Shown here: positions 1 to 50,607 of the stretch, piece by piece
Layout: every line of letters begins with the position of its first letter
Position numbering within the stretch: the stretch's first letter is position 1
Origin: Maribacter arenosus
GTDB lineage: Bacteria; Bacteroidota; Bacteroidia; Flavobacteriales; Flavobacteriaceae
Length of the DNA stretch: 64,000 nucleotides
Direction: 5' to 3'
NCBI RefSeq assembly: GCF_014610845.1
Contig: NZ_JABTCG010000005.1
Span: 62,001 to 126,000 of the forward strand
The notes under the pieces: generated by a model
Seen by the model: the letters and a program-made list of their open reading frames with translations, nothing else
The model's database searches: none
Told to the model about the DNA's origin: nothing
Made by a program: the position numbers and the translations under genes

Positions 1-312
1 GGCATTTTCCAAGGTAACCGAACCTTGATGGGTACTTATAGGATTGAGTCCAAGTTGCTTGACATAGGTTTTGAACTCAGCCGGAGTCATATTATAAAAT
101 TTGCCATCAGAATATCCGGCCGCTTCTATATTTTTGTAGCCGGCATCGGCAACGGCCTTTAAGGTTGCCCGTGCGTCTTCACCCATAGCATCACGTACGG
201 TATACAAGGCCAATCCTCCAAATTTTTCCTGTGCATGCGTCGTTAAAACGCCCATAAGAATAAAGGAAAGCACAAATCCCTTCACTAAATCGTTGAATTT
301 TAATTTTCTCAT
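1..312 (-). CDS. Exported TIM-barrel sugar phosphate isomerase/epimerase-like protein (partial, 3' end outside window)
   Basis: Only the first 104 codons are inside the window. The ATG at 310-312 begins a signal peptide ending near THAQ, followed by FGGLALYTVRDAMGEDA, which is also found exactly in the complete homologue at 40250-41161; the alignment continues through the STHQGSVTL segment. The family is the AP-endonuclease-2-like TIM barrel (xylose isomerase-like). Because the protein appears to be exported, a phosphorylated substrate is unlikely; the real substrate is unknown. It lies 58 bp downstream of the Nudix regulator on the same strand, the same arrangement as in the second locus, so the two are probably co-transcribed. 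The gene is cut by the window edge and is not necessarily broken. Confidence 0.9.
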   Translation of the reverse strand, partial: MRKLKFNDLVKGFVLSFILMGVLTTHAQEKFGGLALYTVRDAMGEDARATLKAVADAGYKNIEAAGYSDGKFYNMTPAEFKTYVKQLGLNPISTHQGSVTLENA

Positions 313-370: not shown

Positions 371-1093
371 TTATTTAAAGCTATAGAGATATGGAGCTTT
401 GTGGGCCTTACCCTGATATAGCTTTTCATGTCTTTCCAAGATGTTCATACCTAAAATACGACGTTGAAAGGTTGTTCTGCGTAAGTTTTCCCCTAAGATG
501 GCCTCATACACCTGCTGCAGTTGTTTCATGGTAAATTTGGATGGTAACAGGTTCATACCCACCAACTTCTTCTCAATATTGTTCCGTAGTACATTCAAGG
601 CTTTATCCACCATTTTTTCATGGTCCATCATCAATGGGGGCAATTCATCAATAGCATACCAATTAATACTATCTGACAACAAATCCGGTTTGAGAGTAAC
701 TTTGTCGTAATTGATCAATGCATAGTAGGCAACGGAGATAAACCGATCTAACATCCATTTATTGGTATCCAAATCAAAGCTATTCCCTAACAAGATACGT
801 TTCATGACATCGGAATCTGAACGCGTTAAACTTCCAAACGTATGGAACTGTTCAAAATATATTTTATCCAAGCCCGTACGTTCCAACACCCCCCTTTTAA
901 CCGCATCATCCAAACTTTCATGCCGTTTCACAAATCCGCCTGGCAATGCGAACAATCCCGTATTATGATATTCTAAGATCAATATTTTCAATTGTTCGCC
1001 GTTGAAACCAAAAATGACGGAATCATAGGATAGATTGGGGATATAATCCTCATCTTCAATATTTCTTATAGCCTTTTTTGAATTCGAATCCAT
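371..1093 (-). CDS. Nudix-domain transcriptional regulator (NrtR/AraR-like) with C-terminal winged helix
   Basis: 240 aa. Residues about 15-160 form a Nudix fold (YDSVIFGFNGEQLKILILEY, then GGFVKRHESLDDAVKRG), and residues about 165-240 resemble the winged helix-turn-helix of NrtR-type regulators (KFTMKQLQQVYEAILGE, then RRTTFQRRIL). The Nudix box is degenerate: the catalytic RExxEE becomes RGVLER, so a ligand-sensing rather than hydrolytic role is expected. Bacteroidota use such proteins as sugar-responsive repressors, for example AraR for arabinose. It is a close paralogue of 39437-40183. It is divergent from the GH2 gene, and a 25-bp palindrome lies 42 bp upstream. The effector is probably a sugar or sugar phosphate, but which one cannot be read from sequence. 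Confidence 0.9.
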   Translation of the reverse strand: MDSNSKKAIRNIEDEDYIPNLSYDSVIFGFNGEQLKILILEYHNTGLFALPGGFVKRHESLDDAVKRGVLERTGLDKIYFEQFHTFGSLTRSDSDVMKRILLGNSFDLDTNKWMLDRFISVAYYALINYDKVTLKPDLLSDSINWYAIDELPPLMMDHEKMVDKALNVLRNNIEKKLVGMNLLPSKFTMKQLQQVYEAILGENLRRTTFQRRILGMNILERHEKLYQGKAHKAPYLYSFK

Positions 1094-1135: not shown

Positions 1136-1160
1136 TTATTGTAACAAAATGAGACAATAA
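1136..1160. promoter_or_regulatory. 25-bp palindromic operator, copy 1 (TTATTGT-N11-ACAATAA)
   Basis: A perfect 7-bp inverted repeat separated by 11 bp lies between the Nudix regulator and GH2. Read toward the regulator, it sits between a TTG in the left half-site and an AAACTTTG -7-like element at 1129-1136, with an 18-bp spacer, which fits autorepression. An operator differing at only one of 25 positions lies at the same place upstream of the paralogous regulator (39363-39387). Identity with the second site is seen directly; binding by the Nudix regulator is inferred. Confidence 0.75.
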
Positions 1161-1323: not shown

Positions 1324-4300
1324 ATGCATCGCTTTACCTTGTTTTTACTTTGTACTATTATTTTTCCCATGACTTTTTTTTCGCAAGAGGTCGAATTTTA
1401 CCCGAGCGATTGGCAAAACCCCGCAATTTTTGAAAAGGGCCAAACCGCACCTCATGCCTTTCATATTCCCTTTGATTCTGAAACGTCAGCGCTGCGCAAT
1501 GACCCGGCAGAAAGTACTAATTATCAATTGCTGAATGGACAATGGGATTTTAAATGGGTATCAAAAGTGGATGAAGTTCCTGAAGGATTCTGGCAGCCAC
1601 AATTCAACACCAAAAGTTGGGACAAGATAAAAGTGCCCAGCAATTGGCAAATGGAAGGCTTTGGTCATCCAAAATTCAGGAATATCAGTCTGACTTTTGA
1701 GAGTGATCCGCCTCATATTCCGGAGTATTACAATCCAGTAGGATGCTACCGGCGTAACTTTACCGTCCCTCCATCTTGGGAAAACAAACAAATTAAATTA
1801 CGCTTCGAGGGCGTTAAATCGGCTACGTATGTATGGGTAAATGGCAAGCGTGTGGGTTATAACCAAGGCGGATTTGAACCTGCGGAATTCGACCTTACCC
1901 CGTTCGTTACAACTGGGGAAAATTCGTTGGCGGTCCAAGTGATTCGATTTAGTGATGGTTCCTATTTGGAGAATCAGGATATGTGGCGTTTATCCGGTAT
2001 TTACAGGGATGTAAAACTTTATGCCCAACCCAAGACCCAAATCAAAGACCATTATGTGGTCACCGATCTAGCTGCGGACTATGAGGACGCCGACCTAAAC
2101 CTTTCAGCCATCATAGGCAATGTGGGTAATAGGGAAAATAAGGTGCAATTGGAAATGGATCTACTTGACGCGAACAACAACTCTTTATTGGGTCGTAAGG
2201 CTTCTTCCGGCATTCTGGATGTTCCCTCCCAAGCTTCCCAAAAAGTCGAGCTATCCGTATCAGTTGTCAAACCAAAAAAATGGTCGGCAGAACTCCCGAA
2301 CCGGTATACCCTATTAGTCACTTTAAAGGATGAAAATGGCGGTGTATTGGAATCCTTTACCGAAAAAATAGGATTTCGTGAGGTGGAATATACCAACAAA
2401 ATTTTGACCGTAAACGGAGTCCCTGTTAAATTAAATGGAATCAATAGTCATATGCACCACCCCGAAAAAGGACAGGCCGTTCCACTTGCCACGCTTCGAA
2501 AAGATCTTGAAATCATGAAACAGTTCAATATGAACTGCGTACGCACGAGCCACTACCCTCCTACTTCCGAATATTTGGATCTTGCCGACGAGCTGGGCAT
2601 TTATGTAGTTGACGAAGTTGGTGATGAGGCCCATGCCAATATTCAGCTCTCCGAAGATCCTGCATGGAGGGAAATGTATAAGGATCGTTCTCGGAAAATG
2701 GTATATCGGGATAGAAACCATCCTTCGGTTATTATGTGGAGTGCGGGCAATGAATCCGGAAGTGGCGAAAATATTAAGGCGGTCATTGAAACCGGTAAGG
2801 AAATAGATCCGAGCCGACCTGCTTGGATGTATGGCGGGAATACCTTTTACATCCCCTTTGAGGATATTGTGGGGCCACGGTATTTTATTCCACTTTGGTT
2901 ACGAAGCATCGTCAATGGCGATGTGCTTCCCGAAGGGGATAACCGTTCCTCGTTTATGGATGAATATTTGGCCGCTACAGGCAATAGTCTAGGTGGATTG
3001 GATGAATACTGGGAAATTATTAGACGCTCTCCCCGTTCTATGGGTGGTGCCATTTGGGATTTTGTGAGCCCAGGTATCAACACCCCACGTTGGATTATCC
3101 CGGACCGGTCCCCAAAAAAGAACGATGGCCAAATTATGGGGAGACCCACTTTTGTGGAAGGTAATTCAGGCAGGGGTCTTGCGTTCTCTGGGCATGATGA
3201 TTGGGTGGAGTTTTATCGCGACTCCTCATTGGATATTACCGGTAGTGGCTTATCCATCGGGTTTTGGGTAAAACCATCAAAAATCCCTCAACCCAATGTC
3301 TTTCTGAGCAAAGGGTTGAACGACTATGGCATTCAAATGAAAGACCGGGATACTTTGGAGTTTTATGTCAATACCAAGGCCGATCACAAACGAATTTCTG
3401 TTAGAACGAAGGTCGGTGAGGATTTCTATGAAGCATGGCACCATGTCGCAGGTATTTATAACGGGCAAAAATTGATGTTGTATGTAGATGAAAAAATGGT
3501 GGAAGAAACCGAATTCACTGGAAATCTCAAGACAACACCATTCCCGTTGTGTTTGGGCCGTGAGGCCGAAAAACAAGACCAAGGGGAGTTTAGCGGGCGT
3601 ATGTCAAGTATGGTACTCGATGATGTACGGGTTTTTGACCACGCTGTTTCCATTTCCGAATTGAAAACCCAAGTAGCCGACGCCGTGTTGGCCCTTGATT
3701 TTGAAAATGATACCCTAGGTGAGGATTTTTATGCCATAGGTTTGGGAGGAAGAACCTATGGGGTCATATGGCCCGATCGTACGGTACAGCCCGAAATACA
3801 TCAAATAAAAAAATCAGGACAACCCATTGGTTTCGAATTGCTTAATCCAGCAAAGGGAATTTTGAAAATCAGCAATCACCATCATTTTAAAGACCTGAAC
3901 ATGTTGAATGGGTACTGGTCGCTTATGGAAGATGGAAAAGAATTGGAAAAAGGGTCACTTTCATTGGATTTGCCAGCACAACAATCGAAAGAAATAACCA
4001 TTCCTTTTAAAAAGAGCAGTATGAATGGGGAACTGATCCTTACGATTGGATTTTCCCTAAAGGAAAAACAGAGCTGGGCCATGGAAGGTCATGAGGTTGC
4101 TTGGGAACAGTTTATCCTGAAAACGGCATCGGTTCCTGTTGCCATAGCCCATGATGAGAAAAGAATACGTGCTGAGGAGAGCACAGCTGAGCTCAAGATT
4201 TCAGGAGATAGCTTTACCTATGTTTTTAATAAGGATGATGGTAAATGGACCTCCTTGCGCTATAATGGAACAGAATATTTGGAAGGGGGTCCGGATTTCA

Positions 4301-5097
4301 TGGTATGGCGTGCCCCACTGGCCAATGATGTAGATCCCTGGGGTTCTTATAAATTTTACAGCAACAAGATGACCCCGGGCTTTGGCCGTTCTATAGATAA
4401 TCAGCTACGAACTTTGGGCTTACGTGACCTGCAGACTAGCGTTGATGAGGTTAGCTTTGTTAACAGTAAAAATCAGGTGAAAGTCAAGCTTAAAATTTGG
4501 TCAACATGCTCCTTAGACCCAGAATTGATCATGTACCCAGACGTTGACTATTCAGCTTTTGAACGTGATGAAGTTTGGACAATACATTCCGATGGTACCT
4601 TGGAATTGGATCAGGAGGTAACCCCACATGGGGCTATGCCCGAAATGCTACCCAAGGAAGGGCTACAGTTTCAATTACCCAAAACGTTCAATCAGGTTAC
4701 CTGGTATGGGCGCGGACCTTTTGAAACCTATCCGGATCGAAAGACCGGGGCCAAATTCGGGGTTTACAATTCGGATGCCGATGCCATGTACGAACCCTAT
4801 ATCCTACCGCAGGATTATGGCAATAGAACCGATGTACGATGGGTTCGGATTTTAAATGCGCAAGGAAAAGGGCTTCTGATCTCAGGAGATCAACCTATAA
4901 ATTTCAGTCTTCATAAATACGACACGGATAACCTTTCAAGAGCGGTTTATACCTATCAATTGAAGGAGGCCCCTTTTACAGTTTTAAATATTGACCATAA
5001 GGTATCAGGTGTAGGAGGCACCGCTTTACGGCAATTAGAGACCTACCGGGAAAAGGCTACAAGCGGTCGATACCATCTAAGGATAAAACCATTTTAA
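1324..5097 (+). CDS. GH2 beta-galactosidase (LacZ-type) with inserted LamG/concanavalin-like domain
   Basis: 1257 aa with a signal peptide (cleavage near FFSQ, residue 21). Domains in order: GH2 jelly-roll (about 50-235), Ig-like (about 240-350), TIM barrel (about 350-600 plus its end near 810-830), and C-terminal beta-sandwich domains typical of LacZ (about 950-1257). Predicted acid/base is Glu477 in SAGNESGSG; predicted nucleophile is Glu547 in FMDEYLAATGN. After WDFVSPG (Trp578) about 220 residues interrupt the barrel; they hold a LamG-like sandwich (SIGFWVKPSK, WHHVAGIYNG, MVLDDVRVFD), and the LacZ pattern resumes at IWPDRTVQPEIHQIKK. That makes the protein longer than the usual 1000-1050 aa. 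It is probably secreted or periplasmic and acts on beta-galactosides of algal or plant polymers. It is divergent from the Nudix regulator. Confidence 0.93.
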   Translation: MHRFTLFLLCTIIFPMTFFSQEVEFYPSDWQNPAIFEKGQTAPHAFHIPFDSETSALRNDPAESTNYQLLNGQWDFKWVSKVDEVPEGFWQPQFNTKSWDKIKVPSNWQMEGFGHPKFRNISLTFESDPPHIPEYYNPVGCYRRNFTVPPSWENKQIKLRFEGVKSATYVWVNGKRVGYNQGGFEPAEFDLTPFVTTGENSLAVQVIRFSDGSYLENQDMWRLSGIYRDVKLYAQPKTQIKDHYVVTDLAADYEDADLNLSAIIGNVGNRENKVQLEMDLLDANNNSLLGRKASSGILDVPSQASQKVELSVSVVKPKKWSAELPNRYTLLVTLKDENGGVLESFTEKIGFREVEYTNKILTVNGVPVKLNGINSHMHHPEKGQAVPLATLRKDLEIMKQFNMNCVRTSHYPPTSEYLDLADELGIYVVDEVGDEAHANIQLSEDPAWREMYKDRSRKMVYRDRNHPSVIMWSAGNESGSGENIKAVIETGKEIDPSRPAWMYGGNTFYIPFEDIVGPRYFIPLWLRSIVNGDVLPEGDNRSSFMDEYLAATGNSLGGLDEYWEIIRRSPRSMGGAIWDFVSPGINTPRWIIPDRSPKKNDGQIMGRPTFVEGNSGRGLAFSGHDDWVEFYRDSSLDITGSGLSIGFWVKPSKIPQPNVFLSKGLNDYGIQMKDRDTLEFYVNTKADHKRISVRTKVGEDFYEAWHHVAGIYNGQKLMLYVDEKMVEETEFTGNLKTTPFPLCLGREAEKQDQGEFSGRMSSMVLDDVRVFDHAVSISELKTQVADAVLALDFENDTLGEDFYAIGLGGRTYGVIWPDRTVQPEIHQIKKSGQPIGFELLNPAKGILKISNHHHFKDLNMLNGYWSLMEDGKELEKGSLSLDLPAQQSKEITIPFKKSSMNGELILTIGFSLKEKQSWAMEGHEVAWEQFILKTASVPVAIAHDEKRIRAEESTAELKISGDSFTYVFNKDDGKWTSLRYNGTEYLEGGPDFMVWRAPLANDVDPWGSYKFYSNKMTPGFGRSIDNQLRTLGLRDLQTSVDEVSFVNSKNQVKVKLKIWSTCSLDPELIMYPDVDYSAFERDEVWTIHSDGTLELDQEVTPHGAMPEMLPKEGLQFQLPKTFNQVTWYGRGPFETYPDRKTGAKFGVYNSDADAMYEPYILPQDYGNRTDVRWVRILNAQGKGLLISGDQPINFSLHKYDTDNLSRAVYTYQLKEAPFTVLNIDHKVSGVGGTALRQLETYREKATSGRYHLRIKPF

Positions 5098-34147: not shown

Positions 34148-36142
34148 CTACTCCATTTTGGCCTTAATAATCATAAACGTGTAAGCAGGTAGAACTACCT
34201 TCGTCTTGTTTTTACGCAATGCTACTTCACTGGGTTGTGGGCTTATTTTTTTAGGGAATTCAAAGGAATTTACTTCCTCTAAATTGTTGGCGCGTAAAAC
34301 AAGACCTCTTCCGGAATCCGCTAATTTTTGTCCCTTAAAATCGATGTTCAGTGTTTGATCTTTATCCGAAGTATTGACCAATTTGATCAATACTTCCCTT
34401 GAATCGGTATCCTTTGTGGCAGAGGCATATAAATCGTGTTGTCCGGTTAACGGCTTCCCGTTCTCCTGTATGGACAATACGTCCGTACCTCTATGCGTTC
34501 CGAACATTTTTTGAACATAGTAATTTGGAGTGCCGTAGGATTCGAGATTGTCGAACCAAATCATATCAGGAGTCCATTGCCAACCTTCCGAGTGCGCCAT
34601 GAGCGGTGCGTAGGATGTCAGATGAACTACATCGGCGTTCCGTTCCAATCCGGTCATAAAGGCCGCTTCCGATAGGGCACACTCCCAATTATTCTTATTG
34701 TCCGGACTTGTTATGGCTACACTTTGAGCTGCGTATTCGCCCGCAAATACTTTTGGTCCGTTACGGTCATAGGTATCGTATCTAGCAGCATTTTCCCTAA
34801 ACCATTCGGGACTGCTGTAAAAATGCTCATCGACTATTTCTGCATTCAATTTCTTTAATTCCTTCCAGCCATATTCAAAATAATCCCCCTCGGCCGCGGG
34901 TCCGCTGCCGGAGACGATAATCATGTTTGGATACTTTGCCTTGATCGCTTTTTCAAAAACCTTATAACGCTCTATGTACACTGAACCCCATTGTTCATTA
35001 CCGATACCGATATATTTCATATTGAAAGGTTCTGGATGGCCCATTTCATTTCTGACCTGCCCCCAAGGGGTATCGATATCACCATTTGCAAACTCGATTA
35101 AATCCAAAGCATCTTGCACATAGGGATCTAAGTCTTCCAAAGGAACCAATTCACCTGTATTGAATTGACAAGCTATTCCGCAACCTAAAATGGGTAATGG
35201 CTCGGCCTCCATATCTTCGGCCAACTGAAAATATTCGAAGAATCCTAATCCAAAACTTTGAAAATAATCGGGTGCAGGTCTGTGGGCAAACTCCGTATTC
35301 CACCGATTTATCAATAACTCCCTATCGGCAAGTGGCCCTACGGTTTTTTTCCATTGATACCTTTGTGCCAAGGTGCGGCCCTCTACGATACAACCCCCAG
35401 GAAAGCGTAAAAACCCGGGATCCAAATCATCCAAAAGCTTAACAAGATCTTTACGCATTCCATATTTTCTTCCCTTCCAAGTATCCTCTGGAAATAAGGA
35501 AACCATATCCAGATTGACAGTTCCCGTACCTTGGAACGTAATGGACAATTTGGCTTTTGCCTCGGTTATAGTTGGAGTCAACACCGTATCGTACTTTTTC
35601 CAATTACTTCCTCGAATAGATATACTTGTATTTCCCAAATCCTTGCCATCGGCATCAATGAAGGCTATTTTTATTTTTGAAATATTACCTTCACCGATAG
35701 CAGCATAAAGAGACATGTTATAGTGCGCACCTTTTTTGATACCCATTCCACGAAATCCTTCGTTTATTAATGAATACCCCTGCTCATCTTCCACTTTTAT
35801 GCTCACATAATTACGGTTGGTGTTTACCCCGGAATACCTGGTAACATGTGCAAATCCGGATTTTGTATTCATATAGTACTTTTCGCTATTGGGTTCTGTC
35901 CAACCCATTTTGGGGTCCTCGAACTCAAAAGAACGGTTTTTTATCATTTCGGCATACAATCCGCCATCGGCTGCAAAGTTGATATCCTCGAAGAAAATTC
36001 CGTACATAGTAGGTTGTATTTTGGCAATGGAATTTTTCATATCTACATTTAGAGTTATTTCTTGAGCGGTCGTCGTGCTGATGCAAATAAGTAGCGTTGT
36101 GAAACGAAATGCCTTGGATAGTTTAATTTTCATCTGGTTCAT
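34148..36142 (-). CDS. GH51 alpha-L-arabinofuranosidase
   Basis: 664 aa with a signal peptide (cleavage near TTAQE, residue 27; a second ATG at codon 4 is possible). The N-terminal part (about 70-220) is a CBM4-like sandwich; the TIM barrel (about 225-520) has acid/base Glu383 in IGIGNEQWG and nucleophile Glu469 in VFAGEYAAQS; a C-terminal beta-sandwich completes GH51. It removes L-arabinofuranosyl side chains from arabinoxylan, arabinan or similar polymers outside the cytoplasm. It is the third gene of the leftward arm behind the second Nudix-site operator: esterase, DUF1593, then GH51 after 17 bp. Confidence 0.94.
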   Translation of the reverse strand: MNQMKIKLSKAFRFTTLLICISTTTAQEITLNVDMKNSIAKIQPTMYGIFFEDINFAADGGLYAEMIKNRSFEFEDPKMGWTEPNSEKYYMNTKSGFAHVTRYSGVNTNRNYVSIKVEDEQGYSLINEGFRGMGIKKGAHYNMSLYAAIGEGNISKIKIAFIDADGKDLGNTSISIRGSNWKKYDTVLTPTITEAKAKLSITFQGTGTVNLDMVSLFPEDTWKGRKYGMRKDLVKLLDDLDPGFLRFPGGCIVEGRTLAQRYQWKKTVGPLADRELLINRWNTEFAHRPAPDYFQSFGLGFFEYFQLAEDMEAEPLPILGCGIACQFNTGELVPLEDLDPYVQDALDLIEFANGDIDTPWGQVRNEMGHPEPFNMKYIGIGNEQWGSVYIERYKVFEKAIKAKYPNMIIVSGSGPAAEGDYFEYGWKELKKLNAEIVDEHFYSSPEWFRENAARYDTYDRNGPKVFAGEYAAQSVAITSPDNKNNWECALSEAAFMTGLERNADVVHLTSYAPLMAHSEGWQWTPDMIWFDNLESYGTPNYYVQKMFGTHRGTDVLSIQENGKPLTGQHDLYASATKDTDSREVLIKLVNTSDKDQTLNIDFKGQKLADSGRGLVLRANNLEEVNSFEFPKKISPQPSEVALRKNKTKVVLPAYTFMIIKAKME

Positions 36143-36159
36143 CGTAATATATTTAAGCT

Positions 36160-37671
36160 TTATTCTGCCGTTAGTACCACCCTTTGATATCTAGTCAAGG
36201 CAGGAAAACCGGTATCCGTACCTTCCACGATAATATGGAATTGGTCTCCTGTTTTAGCCGTTTCGGGAATTTGTACGGTAGCTATGTTTTCCTTGGATGT
36301 CACCTCGGCCTTTCCGCTGCCCGCTTCATCATAGCACCAAGCATTTAGGGCCACAGGATGATTATCGGGGTCTTTGGCGGATAGGGTTAGCGTCAATGTA
36401 TCTCCAGGTCTGGCACTGATCGACATTCCCCCTTCTACTAAGATTGAAGGGGCATGGTTCGCGTCTTCAAATGACGCTATGCACCAATCGGCACGGGCGG
36501 CAAAATCCAATTGCATAGCCCTTATCCATCGGGTCTGTGGATAGCTTTTGTCCATTTCCCCGGTTTCCGGATTTAGGTCCGCTGCCTTGTCCCCATCCTC
36601 ATAGCGATATGGATTTTCATCGGAAAGGACAAAACGACCGCTCCATCCGCCCCGCGAAGGGTCTTCATAATTGTCGAGCCCGACATCTACGAGATGTAAA
36701 AAAGCGGGACTATCACCTTCGGAAATAAAATCATATTTTGAAAAACTACCGCGCTCCGTATTTACAATCTTTAAGATGTCGCCCTCAAAATGATTAGGGT
36801 CCCCCGCCTGTTTCTGCCCGTCACCGTAAGAATAGTATTTTTTTAAGAGCGGACCGTGATCGTTGATGATATTCGGCCCCATAAAACTGCCTTCCAAATA
36901 GGGTTGCTGACTTTTAGGAACTACACGTTTCCACGGATATGCAAAACACCAAAATTGGTTGGCATTGTAGAATACACGGATATTAGGCCAGTTGGGGCCG
37001 ATATATTTTTTATAGGTGGCATCTTGATCCATAATGGTATAGATGATCGCTTTTTTTGAAACCTTCTCCTTTATTGCCTCCCAATCCCGGCTTTTTGAAT
37101 AATCTTCCTCAATCGATTTTAGGGCACGCGCAATGGTATTGGTGCCGCCCCAGGCTTGCAAAAAGATTTCCCGTTCGTCATCATCCAATAATTTTTCGGC
37201 GATCAGCTTCGATCCTTCGGTACGTTTCGCCATCTCGCCTTCAAAGTCGATGTTGCCGATACGAACCAAGCTCAATAGTTTATCGGGCGTTGGATAGTTT
37301 TCATCATGAAGGATAAGGTTCGGATATACCTTGGCATATTCTGTCAAAAGTTCCTCTATCCATTGCGTACCCGGCCATCTTAAATCCGTCAAATTTTCGC
37401 CATAGATATTTCGGGTCATCTCCATTTCGGAGGTGAACTTGGTACCCTTGCCATCCCCTTTCCAATGCCACATGGAGCTGGAATATATCAAACCTTCCGT
37501 TTCAAACTCATTGGTATATAAAAGGAATCTAATAAAAGTGTCGACATCATCGATTTCGCCATCGGTGGTCACTATGGTACGAGGTTTTTCGAGCTGTTCC
37601 TGGGCTTTTGCGATTCCTATGGAAAATAGGAAGCCGAAAATTAAACTCAATTGTATCGCTCTCTGTTTCAT
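36160..37671 (-). CDS. DUF1593 protein, nucleoside-hydrolase-like with C-terminal sandwich domain
   Basis: 503 aa from the ATG at 37669-37671, which starts a proper signal peptide (cleavage near AKAQE). A longer frame opens inside the esterase gene and is unlikely to be used. Residues about 30-370 have the nucleoside hydrolase fold, with TTDGEIDDVDTFIRFL matching the DxDxxxDD-type calcium site of that superfamily; residues about 400-503 form an Ig-like or cellulose-binding-like domain. DUF1593 proteins occur with plant-polysaccharide enzymes and probably hydrolyse a glycosidic bond. It is sandwiched between the esterase (40 bp) and GH51 (17 bp). Confidence 0.88.
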   Translation of the reverse strand: MKQRAIQLSLIFGFLFSIGIAKAQEQLEKPRTIVTTDGEIDDVDTFIRFLLYTNEFETEGLIYSSSMWHWKGDGKGTKFTSEMEMTRNIYGENLTDLRWPGTQWIEELLTEYAKVYPNLILHDENYPTPDKLLSLVRIGNIDFEGEMAKRTEGSKLIAEKLLDDDEREIFLQAWGGTNTIARALKSIEEDYSKSRDWEAIKEKVSKKAIIYTIMDQDATYKKYIGPNWPNIRVFYNANQFWCFAYPWKRVVPKSQQPYLEGSFMGPNIINDHGPLLKKYYSYGDGQKQAGDPNHFEGDILKIVNTERGSFSKYDFISEGDSPAFLHLVDVGLDNYEDPSRGGWSGRFVLSDENPYRYEDGDKAADLNPETGEMDKSYPQTRWIRAMQLDFAARADWCIASFEDANHAPSILVEGGMSISARPGDTLTLTLSAKDPDNHPVALNAWCYDEAGSGKAEVTSKENIATVQIPETAKTGDQFHIIVEGTDTGFPALTRYQRVVLTAE

Positions 37672-37711: not shown

Positions 37712-39340
37712 TTAATTGGTGTATGTCTTGTCCAAAAACAAATATCGTGCATCGTTCTCGGCTTTTTGCATCTTGCTTTCAGTATCAAGAATCATCACGG
37801 GAGGTCGCGGATCATTGGAATCGGATTTGGGCCATTCGGGTAGGTTATCGTCGTTGGGGTTTCCTGTCTTTATAAAATTGGCAAAGTAATCTTGCATGGT
37901 TTTCGAAGCTTTATAATCGTCGGCCGTCCATGCGTAATCATCCACCAAATGAAGGTTGCCCATGGCATATTCGATTTCGGCGGCGTGGGGAGCACCAATA
38001 GGTTTGGGTGCTTCCGGAGCGTCGGAACTTTTTTCGACAGTACCGCCTGCAAGTCCGGAAGTTAGGCTTTTGTCTCTTAACTCCGGGCGCAACTTGCTGT
38101 ACAGATACCGATATACGGGTTGATCGCTGTTTTTTCTATGCAGGTCGAACCACTTCCAAGTGCTATAAACGATAAACCGGTCGGAAGCCAGATTAGTGGC
38201 CGCCCATTGGAGTTCCTCCTGTGTGCTATGAGGATACAATTCTAGTACTTCTTCGTATTTTTTGGGATAGGCTTCCTGCACTTTTGCGATGAAAACTTCC
38301 TTGGTAACTGGTCCCTGGGTAAAGGCCATGCCCGGAATCTCGGCGGAGTTCCATCCGACCAACAACGGAACCTGCGCCTGTTCTTCGGCTTCAAAGATAC
38401 CCGGAAGGGACTTCGGCAAAAAATACCCATCGATTACCATGGGAAAACCGAAGCGTTTCGACTCATTGTAAATCTCATAGATTTCTCGTGTACTTAATTT
38501 CCGAAAATCGGACATACTGGAATACCCCGCATTTTTCAGGAATTCCTCACCTTGTTTTTCGGCCTCAGCCAAAGGAACGGGTGCCATTGTAGGATGGATG
38601 GCGGCCCCGCTCTCGCCAATAGCTCCCGCGATCAAATTTTTAGAAAGTGGCGATGCCATTTGTGCGCTCACACCAATGGAACCTGCCGATTCTCCAGCAA
38701 TGGTCACTTTTTTGGGGTCTCCCCCAAATGCGGCGATATTCTTCTGCACCCATTGCAGGGCCATGTTCTGGTCCAATTGGCCATAATTGCCCGAAGCTTT
38801 GTATGGGGCCTCGGCACTGAGTTCGGGGTGGGCCAGATTGCCGAAAACGTTCAATCGGTAATTGGTCGTCACGACGACCATTCCTTTTTTTGCCATACTC
38901 TCCCCGTCATAACGCGGTTCGGAGGCATCGCCCGCTACGTTGCCACCGCCATAAAAATAGACCAATACGGGAAGGTCTTTGGTACTGCGTTTAGCGGGAG
39001 TCCAGACATTCAGATACAGGCAATCTTCACTGACCCCATTGGAGCGCGACTTCATATCGCCAAATACAAGTGTCTGCATGGGGCGAGGGCCAAAGACCTT
39101 GGTCTCCTTTACGCCTTCCCAATTATCCAATGGTTGGGGCGCCTTCCATCGCAGTTCTCCAATGGGCGGTTTCGCAAAGGGAACACCAAAATAGGTCTGA
39201 ATGCCCGTATGGGTATTGTAATTGCCTTCGATAGTCCCATTTTCGATTTTTACCTGAACGGGAAAGGAGTTTCCGTTCTGGGATATAATCTCTTGATGGA
39301 TTATCAACATGAACAGGCTTAGGATTAGGCTTTGTTTCAT
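37712..39340 (-). CDS. Secreted type-B carboxylesterase
   Basis: 542 aa with a signal peptide (cleavage near IISQN, residue 21). Type-B carboxylesterase signs: the GVPFAKPPIGELRW opening, SEDCLYLNVWTP, YFYGGGNVAGD (oxyanion hole) and nucleophile Ser218 in AGESAGSIG; the late GAPHAAEIEYAMG carries the His. It presumably removes acyl esters from plant or algal polysaccharides. It is first in the leftward arm and starts 22 bp from the 25-bp palindrome at 39363-39387. A second type-B esterase, at 41320, is in the other arm. Confidence 0.92.
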   Translation of the reverse strand: MKQSLILSLFMLIIHQEIISQNGNSFPVQVKIENGTIEGNYNTHTGIQTYFGVPFAKPPIGELRWKAPQPLDNWEGVKETKVFGPRPMQTLVFGDMKSRSNGVSEDCLYLNVWTPAKRSTKDLPVLVYFYGGGNVAGDASEPRYDGESMAKKGMVVVTTNYRLNVFGNLAHPELSAEAPYKASGNYGQLDQNMALQWVQKNIAAFGGDPKKVTIAGESAGSIGVSAQMASPLSKNLIAGAIGESGAAIHPTMAPVPLAEAEKQGEEFLKNAGYSSMSDFRKLSTREIYEIYNESKRFGFPMVIDGYFLPKSLPGIFEAEEQAQVPLLVGWNSAEIPGMAFTQGPVTKEVFIAKVQEAYPKKYEEVLELYPHSTQEELQWAATNLASDRFIVYSTWKWFDLHRKNSDQPVYRYLYSKLRPELRDKSLTSGLAGGTVEKSSDAPEAPKPIGAPHAAEIEYAMGNLHLVDDYAWTADDYKASKTMQDYFANFIKTGNPNDDNLPEWPKSDSNDPRPPVMILDTESKMQKAENDARYLFLDKTYTN

Positions 39341-39362: not shown

Positions 39363-39387
39363 TTATTGTCTCAATTTGTTACAATAA
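39363..39387. promoter_or_regulatory. 25-bp palindromic operator, copy 2 (TTATTGT-N11-ACAATAA)
   Basis: Same half-sites and spacing as 1136-1160; the 11-bp core differs at one position. It lies in the 96-bp region between the esterase (starts at 39340, leftward) and the Nudix regulator (starts at 39437, rightward). Read rightward, TTG (39366-39368), an 18-bp spacer and ATACTTTG (39387-39394) form a promoter-like frame overlapping the operator. One site could control both arms. Confidence 0.75.
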
Positions 39388-39436
39388 TACTTTGTTTTTA
39401 CCAATTTTTAACCTTCATTTGAAAAAAATTTGATTT

Positions 39437-40183
39437 TTGGAAGAAAAAAATAAAAGGCAACCTCCATCAAATGAAGAATTTATGCCTCACTTGGCGTATG
39501 ATTCGGTCATTTTCGGATTTAATGGAAAACAGCTAAAAATCCTTGTGTTGGAATATCACAATACCGACTTTTTCGCCCTTCCTGGTGGTTTTGTCAAAAG
39601 GGACGAAAGTGTTGACGATGCCGTTAAAAGGGGGCTACGGGAAAGAACCGGTCTAGAGAACATCTATCTGGAACAGTTCCACACTTTCGGGGATGTTTCC
39701 CGTCCGGCGCCGGATGTGATGCGGACCATTCTAATGAACAATGGCTACGAGGTCAAACACGATTACTGGATGTTCGACCGCTTTGTGTCCATTGCCTATT
39801 ATGCGCTTATCAATTATGAGGAGGTAAGTCCACTACCGGACGAACTTTCCGATTCCATCAACTGGTATTCCCTTGACGAACTACCTTCATTAATGATGGA
39901 TCATCAGCAGATTGTTGACAAGGCCTTGGAAACCTTACGCGAAAATCTAGATAAGAAGTTGGTAGGCATGAACTTACTTCCCCAAAAGTTCACGATGAAA
40001 AATTTACAAAAAGTATATGAGGCCGTGCTAGGGGAAAAATTGCGCCGTACCAGTTTTCAGCGTAAAATGTTGTCCAAAGACATTCTGGTACGCCATGAAA
40101 AATTATTTAACGGTGGGGCCCACAAAGCACCTTATTTATATAGTTTCAAATCTAAAATAGTCAAAGAGCCAGAAAAGGTATGA
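39437..40183 (+). CDS. Nudix-domain transcriptional regulator (NrtR/AraR-like), second copy
   Basis: 248 aa starting at a TTG; a stop lies two codons upstream and the first ATG is 15 codons in, at 39482. The TTG start gives an N-terminus of the same length as the paralogue at 371-1093, so it is preferred. The Nudix fold (YDSVIFGFNGKQLKILVLEY) has a degenerate box (GGFVKRDESVDDAVKRG then LRERTGL, so RExxEE is RGLRER); the winged helix follows at about 175-240. It probably binds the palindrome at 39363-39387 and the one at 1136-1160, and senses a sugar. Confidence 0.9.
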   Translation: MEEKNKRQPPSNEEFMPHLAYDSVIFGFNGKQLKILVLEYHNTDFFALPGGFVKRDESVDDAVKRGLRERTGLENIYLEQFHTFGDVSRPAPDVMRTILMNNGYEVKHDYWMFDRFVSIAYYALINYEEVSPLPDELSDSINWYSLDELPSLMMDHQQIVDKALETLRENLDKKLVGMNLLPQKFTMKNLQKVYEAVLGEKLRRTSFQRKMLSKDILVRHEKLFNGGAHKAPYLYSFKSKIVKEPEKV

Positions 40184-40249
40184 GTTCGCTGACAGGGCAT
40201 TTTCGATAAAAATCAGTATGAACTTTCTAAAAAATTAAATCAAATAAAC

Positions 40250-41161
40250 ATGAAAAAATCAATTTCAATTTTAGCACTTGTTTTGAGTGTATTCTATTCC
40301 TGCAAAGAAGAAAGCAAAAAAACACAACAGACCCTGGAAACTCCCGAAAGCATGAGCGAGGAAGTTTCAAATTTCGGTGGCTTGGCCCTCTATACGGTCC
40401 GTGATGCCATGGGCGAAGATGCAAAGGCCACCCTAGAAAAAGTGGCCGAGGCGGGCTACAAAAACATAGAGGCAGCGAGTTATGCCGATGGAAAATTCTA
40501 TAATATGTCCCCTACGGATTTTAAAAGCTATGTGAACGAATTGGGGCTAACCCCCATCAGTACCCATCAAGGCAGCGTGACCCTTGACCATGCCGATACC
40601 ATGATGGCCGATGTGAAGGCGGCCGGTTTTGAATATTTTGTTATTCCCGTTCCACCGATGGGCATGTTCGAGTTCAATATGGAGGAACGCACCATGAACA
40701 TGAAAGGTACCGCAGCAGAATTGGCGGATATATTGGATACCTTAAGAGAAAAGGCCAACGCAGCCGGACTCAAATTACTCTATCACAACCATGACTTCGA
40801 GTTTAAGACGGATAAGGACGGTGTGGTCATCATCGATCACCTATTGGAAAACTGCAATCCCGAATTCGTCAACTTTCAAATGGACCTGTATTGGGTTACC
40901 AAGGCAGGGGCCGACCCCGTGGCCTATTTTGAAAAATATCCGGGACGCTTTAAGATATGGCATGTGAAGGATATGGACGACCAAGGCAGGTTTGCCCCTG
41001 TTGGAAAAGGAACCATCGACTTTTCCCGAATCCTTGCGGAAAAAGAATTATCGGGCATGGAATACTATATGGTGGAACAGGACATGACCTACGAAGGATT
41101 GGAACCATTGGAAGCCATTAAGATAAGCCATGAGGGATTGAGGGAAATCGGGTTTGAATAG
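40250..41161 (+). CDS. Lipoprotein TIM-barrel sugar phosphate isomerase/epimerase-like protein
   Basis: 303 aa with lipobox FYSC (Cys17), so exported and lipid-anchored. The AP-endonuclease-2-like TIM barrel spans about 45-300: GLALYTVRDAMGEDAKATLE, NIEAASYADGKFYNMSP, the metal-site regions LLYHNHDFEF, NFQMDLYWVTKAGADP, KIWHVKDMDDQG and YYMVEQDMTYEG (Glu, Asp, His and Glu ligands). It lies 66 bp behind the regulator. As in the homologue at 1-312, export suggests an unphosphorylated sugar or keto-sugar substrate. Exact reaction unknown. Confidence 0.9.
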   Translation: MKKSISILALVLSVFYSCKEESKKTQQTLETPESMSEEVSNFGGLALYTVRDAMGEDAKATLEKVAEAGYKNIEAASYADGKFYNMSPTDFKSYVNELGLTPISTHQGSVTLDHADTMMADVKAAGFEYFVIPVPPMGMFEFNMEERTMNMKGTAAELADILDTLREKANAAGLKLLYHNHDFEFKTDKDGVVIIDHLLENCNPEFVNFQMDLYWVTKAGADPVAYFEKYPGRFKIWHVKDMDDQGRFAPVGKGTIDFSRILAEKELSGMEYYMVEQDMTYEGLEPLEAIKISHEGLREIGFE

Positions 41162-41319
41162 TTCTTTCTCGTTTTAATTCGATCGATTTACCTGTTGTTC
41201 ACTCAACAAAAAATGTCGTTGACGGATTTATTAGAATCGTTCTATTGACTAAAAGATAAATTTATTGGCAGAAATAATAGGAGCAAAACATTGCTGAAAA
41301 ACCATTAAACTATATAATC

Positions 41320-42939
41320 ATGAAAAAATATATCGTTGTCTTACTGATATTTACCTGTTTGTTTTCAGGCCCAAATCTACTTGCCCAGACCCAAGTCATG
41401 ACAGGGGAAAATATCGCCGTAGCCAATACCGAATCCGGGAAAGTCCGTGGATATATCCACAACGGTGTTTATACCTACAAAGGCATCCCCTACGCGCAGG
41501 CGGAAAGGTTTATGCCCCCGCTAAAGGCCAAGCCTTGGGAGGGGATTCGAAGTTCTACGACCTATGGCCCGGTCGCGCCTTTGATGACGCCTACAACGGA
41601 GGTACAGGACGAACCCGAATTCGTTTTCGATCACGATTGGGGTTACACCAACGAGGACTGCCTTCGTATCAATATCTGGACACCCAGCATTGACGACGGT
41701 AAAAAAAGACCCGTGCTTTTTTGGATACATGGTGGTGGCTTTACTGCAGGATCCAGTCAAGAACTACCTTCGTATGATGGCGAAAACCTCAGCAAGAAAG
41801 GAGATGTGGTCGTGGTCTCCATCAATCATCGATTGAATATTTTAGGATTTCTGGATCTATCCGCCTACGGAGAAAAATACGAGCATTCGGCCAACAATAG
41901 TATTTTGGATATGGTCGCGGCCCTCGAATGGGTCAAGACCAACATTTCCAACTTTGGAGGCGACCCGAACAATGTGATGATTTTTGGGCAATCGGGCGGG
42001 GGTGCCAAAGTGAATACCTTAATGGCGATGCCTAAAGCCAAAGGGCTTTTTCATAAAGCGGTCAACCAAAGCGGCTCCTTTCGTACCGGCATTCTTGAAA
42101 AAGAGGATACCCAAGCTATCGGCGCCGAGGTACTTGCGGAATTGGGTCTATCTACCGATCAGGTGGATAGCCTTCAGACCGTCCCTTTTGAAAAATTGAG
42201 CGCAGCTGGCACCAAGGCCCTTAAAAAGGTAGAGGAAAAAATGAAAGCGGAAGGCAAGCCCCTTTCGGGCTTCGGATTGGGTTGGGGACCAAGCGTGGAT
42301 GGGAAGGACCTTCCCTATCAGCTGTTTTCCGAGGAGGCATTTGCACTGTCGAAAAACATCCCCTTGTTGATCGGCACGGTCAAAAATGAGTTTGCGCCTT
42401 TTGCCAACATGCGTTTTGTCGGGGCTTCCGAAGAAACGATTATGAACCATATCAAGGAAACTTATAAAGAGAAATCCGATGCCTACATTCAGGCGGTTAA
42501 AAAGGCGTATCCCACTGATACTGCTCCTAAAGACTTGTTGGACGTAGATACCATGTTCAGGCCTGGGGCAGTTGTTCAGGCCAACGAGAAGTCCTCCCTA
42601 AAGGATGGTGCTCCAGTATATATGTATCTGTTTACTTGGCAATCCCCAGTTTTTGATGGCAAGTACAAATCCCTACACTGTATGGAACTTCCCTTCGTAT
42701 TCGACAATATTGAACGCGCCAAAAATATGACCGGGGGCGGACAGGAAGCACACAAACTTGCCGATAAGGTAAGCCAGGCCTGGATCAATTTTGCCAAGAC
42801 CGGAAACCCGAATCATAGCGGATTGCCCAATTGGCCTGCCTATACTACTAGCGGTACGGACACCATGCACTTCGATACTAGCTGTGCGGTCAAGCCGCAG
42901 CTGGACAAGGAATTGTTCGATTTGGTCAACAACCAATAA
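41320..42939 (+). CDS. Secreted type-B carboxylesterase, second copy
   Basis: 539 aa with a signal peptide (cleavage near LLAQT, residue 23). Type-B pattern: GKVRGYIHNGVYTYKGIPYA, TNEDCLRINIWTP, WIHGGGFTAGS, and nucleophile Ser225 in FGQSGGGAK (GxSxG with Gln). The C-terminal SLHCMELPFVF has the catalytic His. It differs clearly from the esterase at 37712 (whose elbow is GESAG), so this is not a recent duplicate. It lies 158 bp after the epimerase, so it may have its own promoter. Likely removes acyl groups from polysaccharides. Confidence 0.92.
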   Translation: MKKYIVVLLIFTCLFSGPNLLAQTQVMTGENIAVANTESGKVRGYIHNGVYTYKGIPYAQAERFMPPLKAKPWEGIRSSTTYGPVAPLMTPTTEVQDEPEFVFDHDWGYTNEDCLRINIWTPSIDDGKKRPVLFWIHGGGFTAGSSQELPSYDGENLSKKGDVVVVSINHRLNILGFLDLSAYGEKYEHSANNSILDMVAALEWVKTNISNFGGDPNNVMIFGQSGGGAKVNTLMAMPKAKGLFHKAVNQSGSFRTGILEKEDTQAIGAEVLAELGLSTDQVDSLQTVPFEKLSAAGTKALKKVEEKMKAEGKPLSGFGLGWGPSVDGKDLPYQLFSEEAFALSKNIPLLIGTVKNEFAPFANMRFVGASEETIMNHIKETYKEKSDAYIQAVKKAYPTDTAPKDLLDVDTMFRPGAVVQANEKSSLKDGAPVYMYLFTWQSPVFDGKYKSLHCMELPFVFDNIERAKNMTGGGQEAHKLADKVSQAWINFAKTGNPNHSGLPNWPAYTTSGTDTMHFDTSCAVKPQLDKELFDLVNNQ

Positions 42940-42962
42940 TAGAAAACACAAACTAACTCAAA

Positions 42963-43238
42963 ATGGAATCTATAAAAAATTCAATACAACTAATGTGTTT
43001 GGCCCTACTTGTTCTGGTAACGGCCTGTAGCCCGAAATTCTCCGAAGAGGCCAAAACTGATTTTAACCTTGTAAAAAATGAGGGTGGAAGTACCCTGGGT
43101 TACAACCCCAATTCCGGGATAAAATTGTTAACGTTAGATCAATACGCTTTTAAGGACCTGAATAAAAACGGAACCTTGGACGCCTATGAAGATTGGCGAT
43201 TATCGGCAGATGAACGGGTCAAGAAGTATCGAGAATAA
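42963..43238 (+). CDS. Short lipoprotein resembling the N-terminus of a GH3 enzyme (probable remnant)
   Basis: 91 aa with lipobox VTAC (residue about 22). The end FKDLNKNGTLDAYEDWRLSA is the EF-hand-like stretch found just before the catalytic domain of many Bacteroidota GH3 beta-glucosidases; the intact GH3 in this window has the matching FRDLNKNGKLDSYEDPKAAL. The reading frame stops shortly after, at VKKYRE, with no GH3 barrel following. It starts 23 bp after the esterase. It is either the stub of a deleted GH3 gene or a small calcium-binding lipoprotein. Confidence 0.65.
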   Translation: MESIKNSIQLMCLALLVLVTACSPKFSEEAKTDFNLVKNEGGSTLGYNPNSGIKLLTLDQYAFKDLNKNGTLDAYEDWRLSADERVKKYRE

Positions 43239-43288
43239 TATTTTGCTAAATAATTTAGGCTATTTTGAAACAAACTGGACATAAACAT

Positions 43289-44485
43289 ATGAAAACAACA
43301 AGACCGATTACTGTAATTCTACTTTTCTTTATAATATGCATGCACACCCATATCATAAAGGCGCAACCCAATTTGGCCGATTTCAAGAAAAGGTTTGCCC
43401 AAATGGAAAAAGAAAACCTAGACAAAACCTATGAAGGCATTCTTACCTCGGATGGATTGCAAAAAGGGCTCTTCCCCATCGCTTCGACGCGAGTATCGAC
43501 AGAACCCATCAAAAATGCCGCCGAAACCTTTTTTAAGTCGTTGAGCAATGAACAATTGGCAAAGACCCAATTTGAAGTTCAGGACAAGGAATGGCAAAAA
43601 TGGGCGAATGTGGACAATGGACTGTACAAACGGCAAGGAGTCAGCATCAAGGAAATGTCGCAAGAACAACGAAAATTGGCCTTTAAATTAATGCAGGAGG
43701 CACTAAGTGCAAAAGGTCTGCAACTGAGCAAAGACATCATGAAAACCGACCAAACCCTGCGGGAGCTCAATAACGACGACCCCATTTATGATGAGGAACT
43801 GTACTTTTTTACGCTTATGGGGAAGCCCTCGATGACCGAGCCTTGGGGCTGGCAGATCGATGGGCATCATTTGGTCATCAATTATTTTATTTTGGGCGAC
43901 CAAGTTGTGATGACCCCGACCTTCATGGGTGGCGAACCCATCATTACCATTTCCGGAAAATATAAGGGTAACACCATCTTTCAGGATGAACAGAACATAG
44001 GCTTGAAGTTCATGCAATCCCTTTCCCCCGAACAGCAAAAGGAAGCTACTTTACCGGAGGGGAAAAGAGGAAACAATATTGCTGCAGAAGCCTTTTCGGA
44101 TAATAAAACGGTAGACCACCAAGGGTTACTGGCCAGTAAAATGACCAAAACACAAAAAGAGCAATTGTTAGGTCTTGCCCATCAATACATTTCAAATATG
44201 GAAGAAGGTCATGCCAAGGTTAAAATGGAAGACATCAAAAAACAACTCGATAACACTTGGTTCGCTTGGATCGGTAAAACTGATGAGGATGCGGTATTCT
44301 ATTATCGGATCCACAGTCCGGTCGTCTTAATCGAATTCGACCACCAAGGGCCGATCGGAATTCAAGGCCAGGGTCGTGAGCCCACAAGAAACCATATCCA
44401 TACCATGGTTCGAACTCCTAATGGAAATGACTATGGAAAGGATTTATTAAAGCAACATTTGAAGGCGCATCATGGTCATGAATAA
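43289..44485 (+). CDS. DUF3500 domain protein, exported
   Basis: 398 aa from the ATG at 43289, which starts a signal peptide (cleavage near IKAQP); a TTG 24 bp further upstream is in frame but would place charged residues before it. DUF3500 signs: NEQLAKTQFEVQDKEWQKW, TEPWGWQIDGHHLVINYF, GREPTRNHIHTMVRTPNG, with several conserved His. The family has no known function. It lies 50 bp after the GH3-like remnant, on the same strand. Confidence 0.87.
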   Translation: MKTTRPITVILLFFIICMHTHIIKAQPNLADFKKRFAQMEKENLDKTYEGILTSDGLQKGLFPIASTRVSTEPIKNAAETFFKSLSNEQLAKTQFEVQDKEWQKWANVDNGLYKRQGVSIKEMSQEQRKLAFKLMQEALSAKGLQLSKDIMKTDQTLRELNNDDPIYDEELYFFTLMGKPSMTEPWGWQIDGHHLVINYFILGDQVVMTPTFMGGEPIITISGKYKGNTIFQDEQNIGLKFMQSLSPEQQKEATLPEGKRGNNIAAEAFSDNKTVDHQGLLASKMTKTQKEQLLGLAHQYISNMEEGHAKVKMEDIKKQLDNTWFAWIGKTDEDAVFYYRIHSPVVLIEFDHQGPIGIQGQGREPTRNHIHTMVRTPNGNDYGKDLLKQHLKAHHGHE

Positions 44486-44611
44486 AAATGCGAAACCTGA
44501 AGTTCTAACCGTTCAAAAAAAAGAGGGCGGTTTTGCAATAAAGAAAGTTATGGCTTCAATATCATGTTGCAGCTAATGGGTAACAACAGTTTAACGAACA
44601 CATAATTTATC

Positions 44612-45124
44612 ATGCTAAAAAAAATCCTAATCGGGTTAGGAATTGTACTGATCGCTATTCAGTTTATACGCACTGACAAAAACGAATCGAACGATCTCAC
44701 TTATGATATTTCCACAAAATACATGATACCCAACGATGTAAACCATCTGTTACAGGTTTCCTGCAACGATTGCCATTCCAACAAAACTGAATATCCTTGG
44801 TATTCGAATGTGCAACCTGTTGCGTGGTGGCTCGATCATCATGTCGATGACGGCAAAAAGCATTTAAATTTTTCTGAGTTTACCAAAATACCGCTCTTCG
44901 TTCAAAACCATAAGTTTGAAGAAATCATCGAAATGGTAGACGATAAGGAAATGCCATTGCCTTCGTACACTAATTTTGGGCTTCATTCAGAGGCGAATTT
45001 GTCCGATGAACAACGTAAGATGATTACGGATTGGGCAAAGATACAAATGGATTATTTGAAGAATAACTATCCAGCAGATAGTTTGGTCTTTCCAAAAAGA
45101 GATGCGGCACCGCCGAAAGGTTGA
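44612..45124 (+). CDS. Haem-binding domain protein with one CxxCH
   Basis: 170 aa. A single N-terminal membrane anchor (about 4-20) is followed by a HaemBD-type domain: CNDCHSN with Cys51, Cys54 and His55 for covalent haem, then YPWYSNVQPVAWWLDHHVDD. Family members are encoded beside cytochrome peroxidases or DUF proteins. It is presumably periplasmic and redox-related. It starts 126 bp after DUF3500, so whether it shares a transcript is unclear. It is convergent with the frameshifted gene at 45152. Confidence 0.88.
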   Translation: MLKKILIGLGIVLIAIQFIRTDKNESNDLTYDISTKYMIPNDVNHLLQVSCNDCHSNKTEYPWYSNVQPVAWWLDHHVDDGKKHLNFSEFTKIPLFVQNHKFEEIIEMVDDKEMPLPSYTNFGLHSEANLSDEQRKMITDWAKIQMDYLKNNYPADSLVFPKRDAAPPKG

Positions 45125-45151
45125 TTAAATCCAATAAGTATTCGATTAGAA

Positions 45152-47475: not shown

Positions 47476-47538
47476 ACTCAGCAGTAGCTACCAGGTGTTC
47501 CTATCATTTTTTTTGATGAACAAATTGCAAATTCATAC

Positions 47539-50401: not shown

Positions 50402-50494
50402 AGCATAGTTGATGTTTGTTAGTTGAAATGGTCTTGGGGCTTGCACCTTGGGCCGTTTCCAACAAACGCGAATTTTAAGAAAAATAATAGTACA

Positions 50495-50593: not shown

Positions 50594-50607
50594 CGGAAAA
50601 TTAAATT

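Follow-up and report, generated by a model that had tools for sequence, protein, structure and literature searches.

A conserved palindrome beside two paralogous AraR-like Nudix regulators of Maribacter arenosus is the predicted operator of a probable new regulon in Bacteroidota

NrtR-type sugar regulators are the subject of PMC4666351 and PMC3878776, of which we drew on excerpts. In these excerpts, BtAraR (BT0354; PDB 5bs6, 5dd4, 5ddg and 5deq) is described as the arabinose regulator of Bacteroides thetaiotaomicron, and its operator comprises GTGT and ACAC half-sites with the outer GT and AC 11 bp apart, beneath a dimer that covers 25 bp (PMC4666351, Table 2). The DNA contacts K179, R180, N181 and K184 are given there as absolutely conserved in AraR, and XylR (BT0791), the xylose regulator of Bacteroides, belongs to the same NrtR family and to the same phylum (PMC4666351). 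The excerpt of PMC12125979 concerns XylR of the E. coli type. An operator motif of the Bacteroides XylR was not found in the literature text, and a literature search for work on Nudix operators or regulators of Flavobacteria or Zobellia gave no report. A further described system is NrtR, the regulator of NAD metabolism, represented by PDB 3gz5 and 3gz6, which we take to be the protein of Shewanella oneidensis.

The window, which is the whole 64-kb stretch of DNA analysed here (C20:62001-126000 of the 4.17 Mb genome of Maribacter arenosus), contains the palindrome pattern TTATTGTCTCA(T/A)TTTGTTACAATAA at two places, each next to a regulator gene of the Nudix type:

371..1093, minus strand: regulator 1, 240 aa, degenerate Nudix domain and NrtR/AraR winged helix
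1136..1160, minus strand: predicted operator 1, TTATTGTCTCATTTTGTTACAATAA when read towards regulator 1, dyad centre 1148, conserved in orthologues
39363..39387, plus strand: predicted operator 2, TTATTGTCTCAATTTGTTACAATAA when read towards regulator 2, dyad centre 39375, conserved in orthologues
39437..40183, plus strand: regulator 2, 248 aa from TTG 39437 (alternative start ATG 39482)

The sequence-only reading had placed both palindromes exactly where they stand in the window, and a recount of their identity, aligned towards the regulator, gave the same 24 of 25 positions that it had claimed. Exact arm pairs occurred in the window at these two places only, compared to an expectation of 0.001 in 64 kb and of 0.06 in the genome under the dinucleotide composition of the window (P of at least two in 64 kb, ~5e-7). 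With up to three mismatches in the arms, 16 places were found in the window, while shuffled sequences yielded a mean of 7.9 and a maximum of 15. Across the whole genome, the spacer-aware pattern, for which three mismatches were tolerated at most, returned the two window sites and one place within a coding frame, and no third close copy between genes was found in the 4.17 Mb. The scan for further copies that had been proposed as a check therefore located close copies beside the two regulators only, apart from the coding-frame match. When the spacer was ignored and two mismatches were allowed in the arms, 76 places were obtained genome-wide, near the background of 67 in the reversed control; two of the 76 (C12:379453 and 379505) adjoin a third Nudix regulator. 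Based on the exact-pair statistics, the shuffles, the genome scan and the reversed control, we rejected a chance origin of the paired sites. The coding-frame match, C18:162529, was rejected as a third full site as it lies inside the frame of a sugar transferase.

By their predicted domains, both proteins are NrtR/AraR-type regulators with a degenerate Nudix domain and a winged helix. NUDIX, NrtR_WHD and AraR_C all scored above the Pfam gathering thresholds in either protein (5.8e-7, 3.1e-19 and 1.2e-5, respectively, for regulator 1). The best PDB relative of both was BtAraR (5bs6/5deq), with E values of 6.8e-38 and 1e-41. The domain architecture, with NrtR_WHD above its cut-off, is also that of NrtR; however, AraR outscored 3gz5, the neighbourhood consists of sugar enzymes, and the NCBIfam equivalog NtrR (NF050029), whose cut-off is 400 bits, reached only 94.7 and 95.1. 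With BtAraR the regulators share the combination of Nudix domain and winged helix, the degenerate Nudix box, and the GT-N11-AC spacing of the operator, which in BtAraR lies beneath a dimer footprint of 25 bp (PMC4666351) and which is also present in the 77 aligned sites described below. In 82 of 82 regulators, the L-arabinose ligands R86 and H131 are kept as R91 and H158, whereas the third ligand, R34, is replaced by Tyr. The Nudix signature GX5EX7REUXEEXGU is impaired in the same 82, the E of RE being Gly and the second E of EE being Arg. The recognition helix differs as well: DKRNFRK of BtAraR reads RRT(T/S)FQR here, Lys179, which contacts the G of GT, is Arg in 82/82, and the intercalating Arg180 is Thr, Ala, Gly or Ser in the 82 proteins. 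As tests of AraR orthology, both sets of residues thus gave a negative answer: the contacts K179, R180, N181 and K184 align with R, T, T/S and R, and R34 is missing from the ligand set R34, R86 and H131. A further difference to BtAraR lies in the neighbouring genes, which encode carboxylesterases, a TIM-barrel isomerase and a GH3 enzyme; no araBAD-like gene occurred among the neighbours scanned. Judged from the pocket residues, the effector is likely sugar-like, and L-arabinose itself is unlikely.

Regulators 1 and 2 are 66% identical. In two trees they fall in different supported clades, each with other genera, indicating that the pair is old, and we regard them as old co-orthologues rather than as a recent pair; the operator has accordingly been kept by selection at each of them. 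In the smaller tree, regulator 1 groups with three GH2-linked Maribacter regulators (81/82 support); this grouping was not recovered in the larger tree, where these proteins share one supported clade whose internal branching is left open. Positions 206, 209, 210 and 211 are invariant in 82/82 regulators, and the DNA-contact positions of the two window regulators are the same save for one Thr/Ser change, so that each regulator is expected to bind both sites.

The genes surrounding the two sites are as follows:

1..312, minus strand: start of a xylose-isomerase-like TIM-barrel protein downstream of regulator 1, running past the window (L098:6434-7312)
1324..5097, plus strand: GH2 beta-galactosidase carrying a laminin-G insert, transcribed divergently from regulator 1
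34148..36142, minus strand: alpha-L-arabinofuranosidase (Pfam Alpha-L-AF_C), 17 bp after the Sde182 gene on the same strand
36160..37671, minus strand: Sde182-type nucleoside-hydrolase-like protein, downstream of COest on the same strand
37712..39340, minus strand: divergent carboxylesterase (COest) with a signal-peptide-like start, PF00135 1.2e-109, a conserved neighbour
40250..41161, plus strand: lipoprotein-like xylose-isomerase-like TIM-barrel protein downstream of regulator 2, PF01261 1.7e-11
41320..42939, plus strand: carboxylesterase 2 (COest2), PF00135, a possible member of the regulator 2 operon

At the regulator 2 locus, COest, the Sde182-like gene and the arabinofuranosidase gene (34148..36142; presumably GH51) lie on one side of the operator, and the regulator, isomerase and COest2 genes on the other; this arrangement with a divergent esterase is the common one among orthologues. 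COest, whose start codon lies 22 bp from operator 2, is the main predicted target of this site. Regulator 1 is followed by its isomerase gene and a GH3 gene and is faced by the GH2 gene, which starts 163 bp from operator 1 and recurs as a neighbour in three Maribacter species (L020, L021, L024). The GH2 gene is a possible target of operator 1, less sure than the COest operon. Within the GH2 protein (1324-5097), a laminin-G/concanavalin-like domain is located between the TIM barrel and the C-terminal domains. The isomerases behind the two regulators are paralogous; the one at 40250..41161 matched PDB 8tcd/8tcs at about 2e-38 to 3e-38, and secretion of the 1..312 product was judged by eye from its N-terminus. 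Both neighbourhoods (39437-51117; L098 2798-8093) include genes for an isomerase, a GH3 enzyme, a PepSY-like protein and a protein with a haem-binding domain (PF14376), so that the loci have more in common than the regulator cassette. The isomerases and esterases may act in a 3-keto-glycoside pathway such as that of BT2157 and its neighbours. BT2156-BT2160 are mentioned in PMC11501099, in a passage that is silent on a regulator.

A scan for relatives found 117 regulators, and locus counts were made on the best 80 of these 117, a site being called when a 25-mer agreed with the arms at 12 or more of the 14 positions and the start of the matched regulator followed within 350 bp. Such a site was present in 75 of these 80 loci, compared to 16 of 2312 blocks of 370 bp outside the upstream zone, about half of the 16 being further copies within the same loci. 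Among the five of the 80 without a site within 350 bp, two have a good site further upstream (L070, L082) and one has a site 1.3 kb upstream (L056), while none was found in the locus DNA examined for L026 and L091. The loci belong to Flavobacteriaceae, Cyclobacteriaceae, Spirosomataceae, Flectobacillaceae, Lewinellaceae and others. An alignment of 77 sites (the 75 from the best 80 of 117 relatives plus the two window sites; L056, L070 and L082 are absent from it and entered the helix-base counts only) revealed G6, T7 and A19 in 77/77 and C20 in 76/77.

We also searched genomes independently of the loci. Of 199 genomes of the family, a sample from a larger group, nine contained the motif when one mismatch was allowed and eight the regulator (E ≤1e-70), all eight being among the nine; the reversed pattern had no match in the 199. 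In the ninth motif genome (G056), the operator is followed by a C-terminal regulator scrap of 31-34 residues and then by isomerase and GH3 genes. This persistence of the operator before a regulator relic (G056:C1:714501-714627; L110, L123) has the appearance of a decayed regulator with a surviving module. In a phylum sample of 395 genomes, searched with an exact but looser pattern, 19 places in 15 genomes were obtained, and the reversed control matched in 7/395 genomes. Thirteen of the 19 places adjoin a regulator of the AraR-like kind (one a 41% identical paralogue), two precede module genes away from the regulator, and four are without explanation. The regulator at E 1e-70 is a minority gene in the phylum, occurring in 14 genomes of this sample, of which 9 carry the exact pattern; three of the other five (G517, G368, G383, G361, G301) have a variant site. 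Six of the 15 pattern genomes are without a regulator at this threshold, two of them having a more distant one beside the site, and the link between motif and regulator is therefore looser in the phylum sample than in the family sample. The proposal that the palindrome is an operator shared by paralogous regulators is nevertheless strongly supported by sequence conservation, with a site at 75/80 loci (best 80 of 117 relatives) versus 16/2312 background blocks, and with the motif in 8/8 family genomes that have the regulator.

The picture of an operator serving two regulators is, however, too narrow, since the site mostly lies between the regulator and a divergent esterase and since copies exist at moved and other genes. 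A divergent carboxylesterase at least 50% identical to the product of 37712-39340 was found in 61 of the 80 loci (best 80 of 117 relatives), and in 55 of these 61 the site is common to esterase and regulator (53 from a scripted count, to which L070 and L082 were added, each having one site at a distance of >350 bp); esterase starts in the orthologous loci are estimates from alignments. In four loci (L019, L030, L032, L034) the esterase now lies 1.7 to 4.4 kb away, and a copy is retained at either gene; the moved esterases of L042 and L046 have no good copy. Distant copies precede a COest2 homologue on another contig (G172), a GH3 gene 43 kb away on the same contig (G271), and a COest paralogue of 37% identity on another contig (G304). 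This module-wide distribution is probably that of a regulon, and the site looks like the operator of a module, not an autoregulatory element alone.

Candidate promoter elements were compared with the -7 consensus TAnnTTTG, as given in the excerpt of PMC9723704:

1129..1136, minus strand: candidate -7 box of regulator 1, AAACTTTG, with the TTG of the -33 element at 1155-1157 inside the operator
39382..39389, minus strand: candidate -7 box of COest, TATTATTG, which departs from TAnnTTTG at one position and overlaps the operator arm
39387..39394, plus strand: weak candidate -7 box of regulator 2, ATACTTTG, with TTG at 39366-39368

The promoter frame that had been proposed over both sites was confirmed in part: regulator 1 has TTG-N18-AAACTTTG, with one mismatch to TAnnTTTG, and the box of regulator 2 has two mismatches. 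A second candidate -7 box lies further downstream, about +26 to +28 after the site, at both window sites and in many orthologues. Of the distances of 42 and 49 bp between site and start codon, the latter is correct if regulator 2 starts at TTG 39437, a codon found at +49 in several orthologues as well, but becomes 94 bp with ATG 39482. On the COest side, a -7-like box occurs at the same place in 67 of 77 aligned promoters (next best place, 5). The match is in part the operator arm itself, but the outer TA is conserved on the regulator side only.

We propose, at a probability of roughly 0.8, that an AraR-like subfamily of the NrtR family has the palindrome as its operator, at which a dimer represses in both directions and is released by a sugar or sugar derivative. 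The homodimer would cover the 25 bp; its two recognition helices would each read TTGT, including the invariant GT pair, and its wings would sit in the minor grooves of the flanking TTA/TAA; the winged helix would thus be the DNA reader and the inactive Nudix domain the sugar sensor. Operator 2 would cover the start region of the divergent COest operon together with the -33/-7 region of the regulator-isomerase-COest2 operon, and because it lies over both promoter regions, one dimer would repress both directions and the regulator itself. This geometry most naturally suggests that a single dimer represses in both directions; we infer this, as we infer binding, repression, induction, effector and operon limits in general. 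A sugar or derivative freed by the module would alter the dimer and lead to induction, as L-arabinose does for BtAraR. At regulator 1, the operator, regulator and isomerase would be kept in the same roles, with the GH2 beta-galactosidase faced instead of the esterase.

An activator would also fit, given that the operator immediately precedes the second candidate promoter. The dimer would then sit upstream of a promoter whose -33 element (TACTTTG/TAATTG) follows right after the palindrome and whose -7 element lies near +26 to +35. In many orthologues, positions +27 to +35 form a conserved block, which is consistent with this arrangement, as are exact TAnnTTTG boxes at +28 in 12/77 sites and boxes with at most one mismatch at +26, +27 and +28 in 13, 24 and 16 of the 77. 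However, regulator 1 would be left with a leader of about 4 bases before its ATG at +43, while leaderless mRNAs account for only 5.5% in F. psychrophilum (excerpt of PMC9723704); BtAraR is released by its sugar (excerpt of PMC4666351), and the esterase-side site ends 8-35 bp from most of the start codons, which are approximate. Activation is therefore unlikely in our view. Even less probable is a purely autoregulatory site that serves the two regulator operons with the divergent genes as bystanders. In most Flavobacteriaceae loci, as at the window sites, the asymmetric centre faces the regulator, both close sites of this genome adjoin a regulator, and the moved esterases of L042 and L046 are without a good copy, all of which such a role would explain; it would not account for the own copies of the separated esterases in L019, L030, L032 and L034 or for the distant copies at COest2, GH3 and the esterase paralogue.

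Binding of the palindrome by another transcription factor, for example a Crp-like one, would turn the Nudix genes into mere neighbours. The araMPRDAB and xylRBAE promoters of Bacteroides do bear a Crp-like palindrome, albeit of different sequence (excerpt of PMC3878776), and four of the 19 phylum places have neither a Nudix regulator nor a module gene alongside, with the reversed control matching in 7/395 genomes. Motif presence nonetheless tracks the regulator in the family sample at one or two copies per genome, the geometry is that of the BtAraR operator, and paralogous Nudix regulators have related sites with a changed position 8, so that we consider another factor very improbable. That the identity of the two sites merely reflects a recent duplication of the cassette has, we believe, next to no likelihood. 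The paralogous isomerases behind both regulators would suit it, as would 33 of 60 matches in the 60 bp after the sites (10/15 in the first 15 and 23/45 in the next 45), but only 14 of 60 positions match in the 60 bp before the sites, and in both trees the regulators, at 66% identity, are placed apart in two supported clades that also hold other genera. Compared with these explanations, the preferred reading remains that of an operator at which an AraR-like dimer represses a sugar-linked module.

A bolder proposal, to which we give somewhat less than an even chance, concerns operator specificity: one rigid scaffold (TTGT-N11-ACAA or AGTGT-N7-ACACT, both GT-N11-AC) would be re-targeted via residue 205 (numbering of regulator 1), which reads operator position 8. 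This residue equals BtAraR Asp178, which contacts C19, the partner of the position-8 base (excerpt of PMC4666351, Table 2). The half-sites of 104 regulators suggest a code in which an acid specifies G (19/22), Arg and His specify C (82/118 and 20/24, respectively), and Asn specifies T (30/38). The 104 comprise the 80 operators, 22 of 49 further regulator rows, and L017 and L124; L145 was counted although its protein is identical to L081. Left out of the 49 rows were L113-L120 and L170 (9 rows, some repeated, all Arg205 with C at position 8), repeats of used places (L144, L150, L152, L153, L154, L173), and 12 rows without an acceptable site (L121, L149, L155, L156, L160, L161, L162, L163, L165, L168, L171, L172), L160 and L155 having weak dyads without a TTGT arm. 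No site was found for L015. A base other than C at position 8 accompanies Asn205 in 15/15 cases, compared to 3/65 without Asn (Fisher, 1e-13), and the Arg-with-C trend also occurs in a separate lineage (L122, L169). Where residue 205 is Asp or Glu and a site was detectable, the half-sites are TTGTGT or AGTGT, as for BtAraR with Asp178; these cases comprise the genome's own paralogues near C12:378541 and C12:48552 and relatives. In a tree-aware test, however, 4 shared-branch changes were observed versus 2.06 expected (P = 0.10). Column 205 ranked third of 225 protein columns for position 8, and second in the enlarged set; the top column lay outside the helix in both sets (178, then 168). Exceptions are Arg without C on the left (L061, L070, L090), Arg with T in one half (L146, L147), Asn with C in one half (L139), and His with T (L151). 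Given the non-significant tree-aware test, the exceptions and the 12/49 siteless rows, the rule is put forward as a bold reading only.

Three related sites were seen alongside. Two imperfect palindromes with TTGTGT/TTGTAT half-sites (G000 C12:379453-379477 and 379505-379529; L014:2413-2489) lie between a divergent gene, GH3-like as judged by eye, and the third Nudix regulator, which shares 40% identity with regulator 1; the palindromes would form a sister operator of altered specificity. Near C12:48552 of the same genome (G000; L017), a Nudix regulator with the BtAraR-type helix DKRNF is preceded by AATAAGTGTCTATTTTACACTTATT, which is close to the BtAraR operator core, and this regulator is likely a flavobacterial AraR orthologue. 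In G318 (C15:10009-10031; L140), the symmetric TATTGTATCAAAATGATACAATA precedes a Nudix regulator of 41% identity in which residue 205 is Val.

To our knowledge, few NrtR/AraR-type regulators outside Bacteroides have been characterised in Bacteroidota. The predicted operator is a real and conserved site and the AraR-like Nudix regulon is probably new, turning the observation of two sites into a candidate regulon with a named regulator, an operator and targets across several orders of Bacteroidota. It also poses the question of which sugar suits an AraR-like pocket in which R34 is replaced by Tyr. The helix-to-base rule for the NrtR/AraR family is testable and, if true, would allow the operator specificity of many sugar regulators to be read from the protein sequence.
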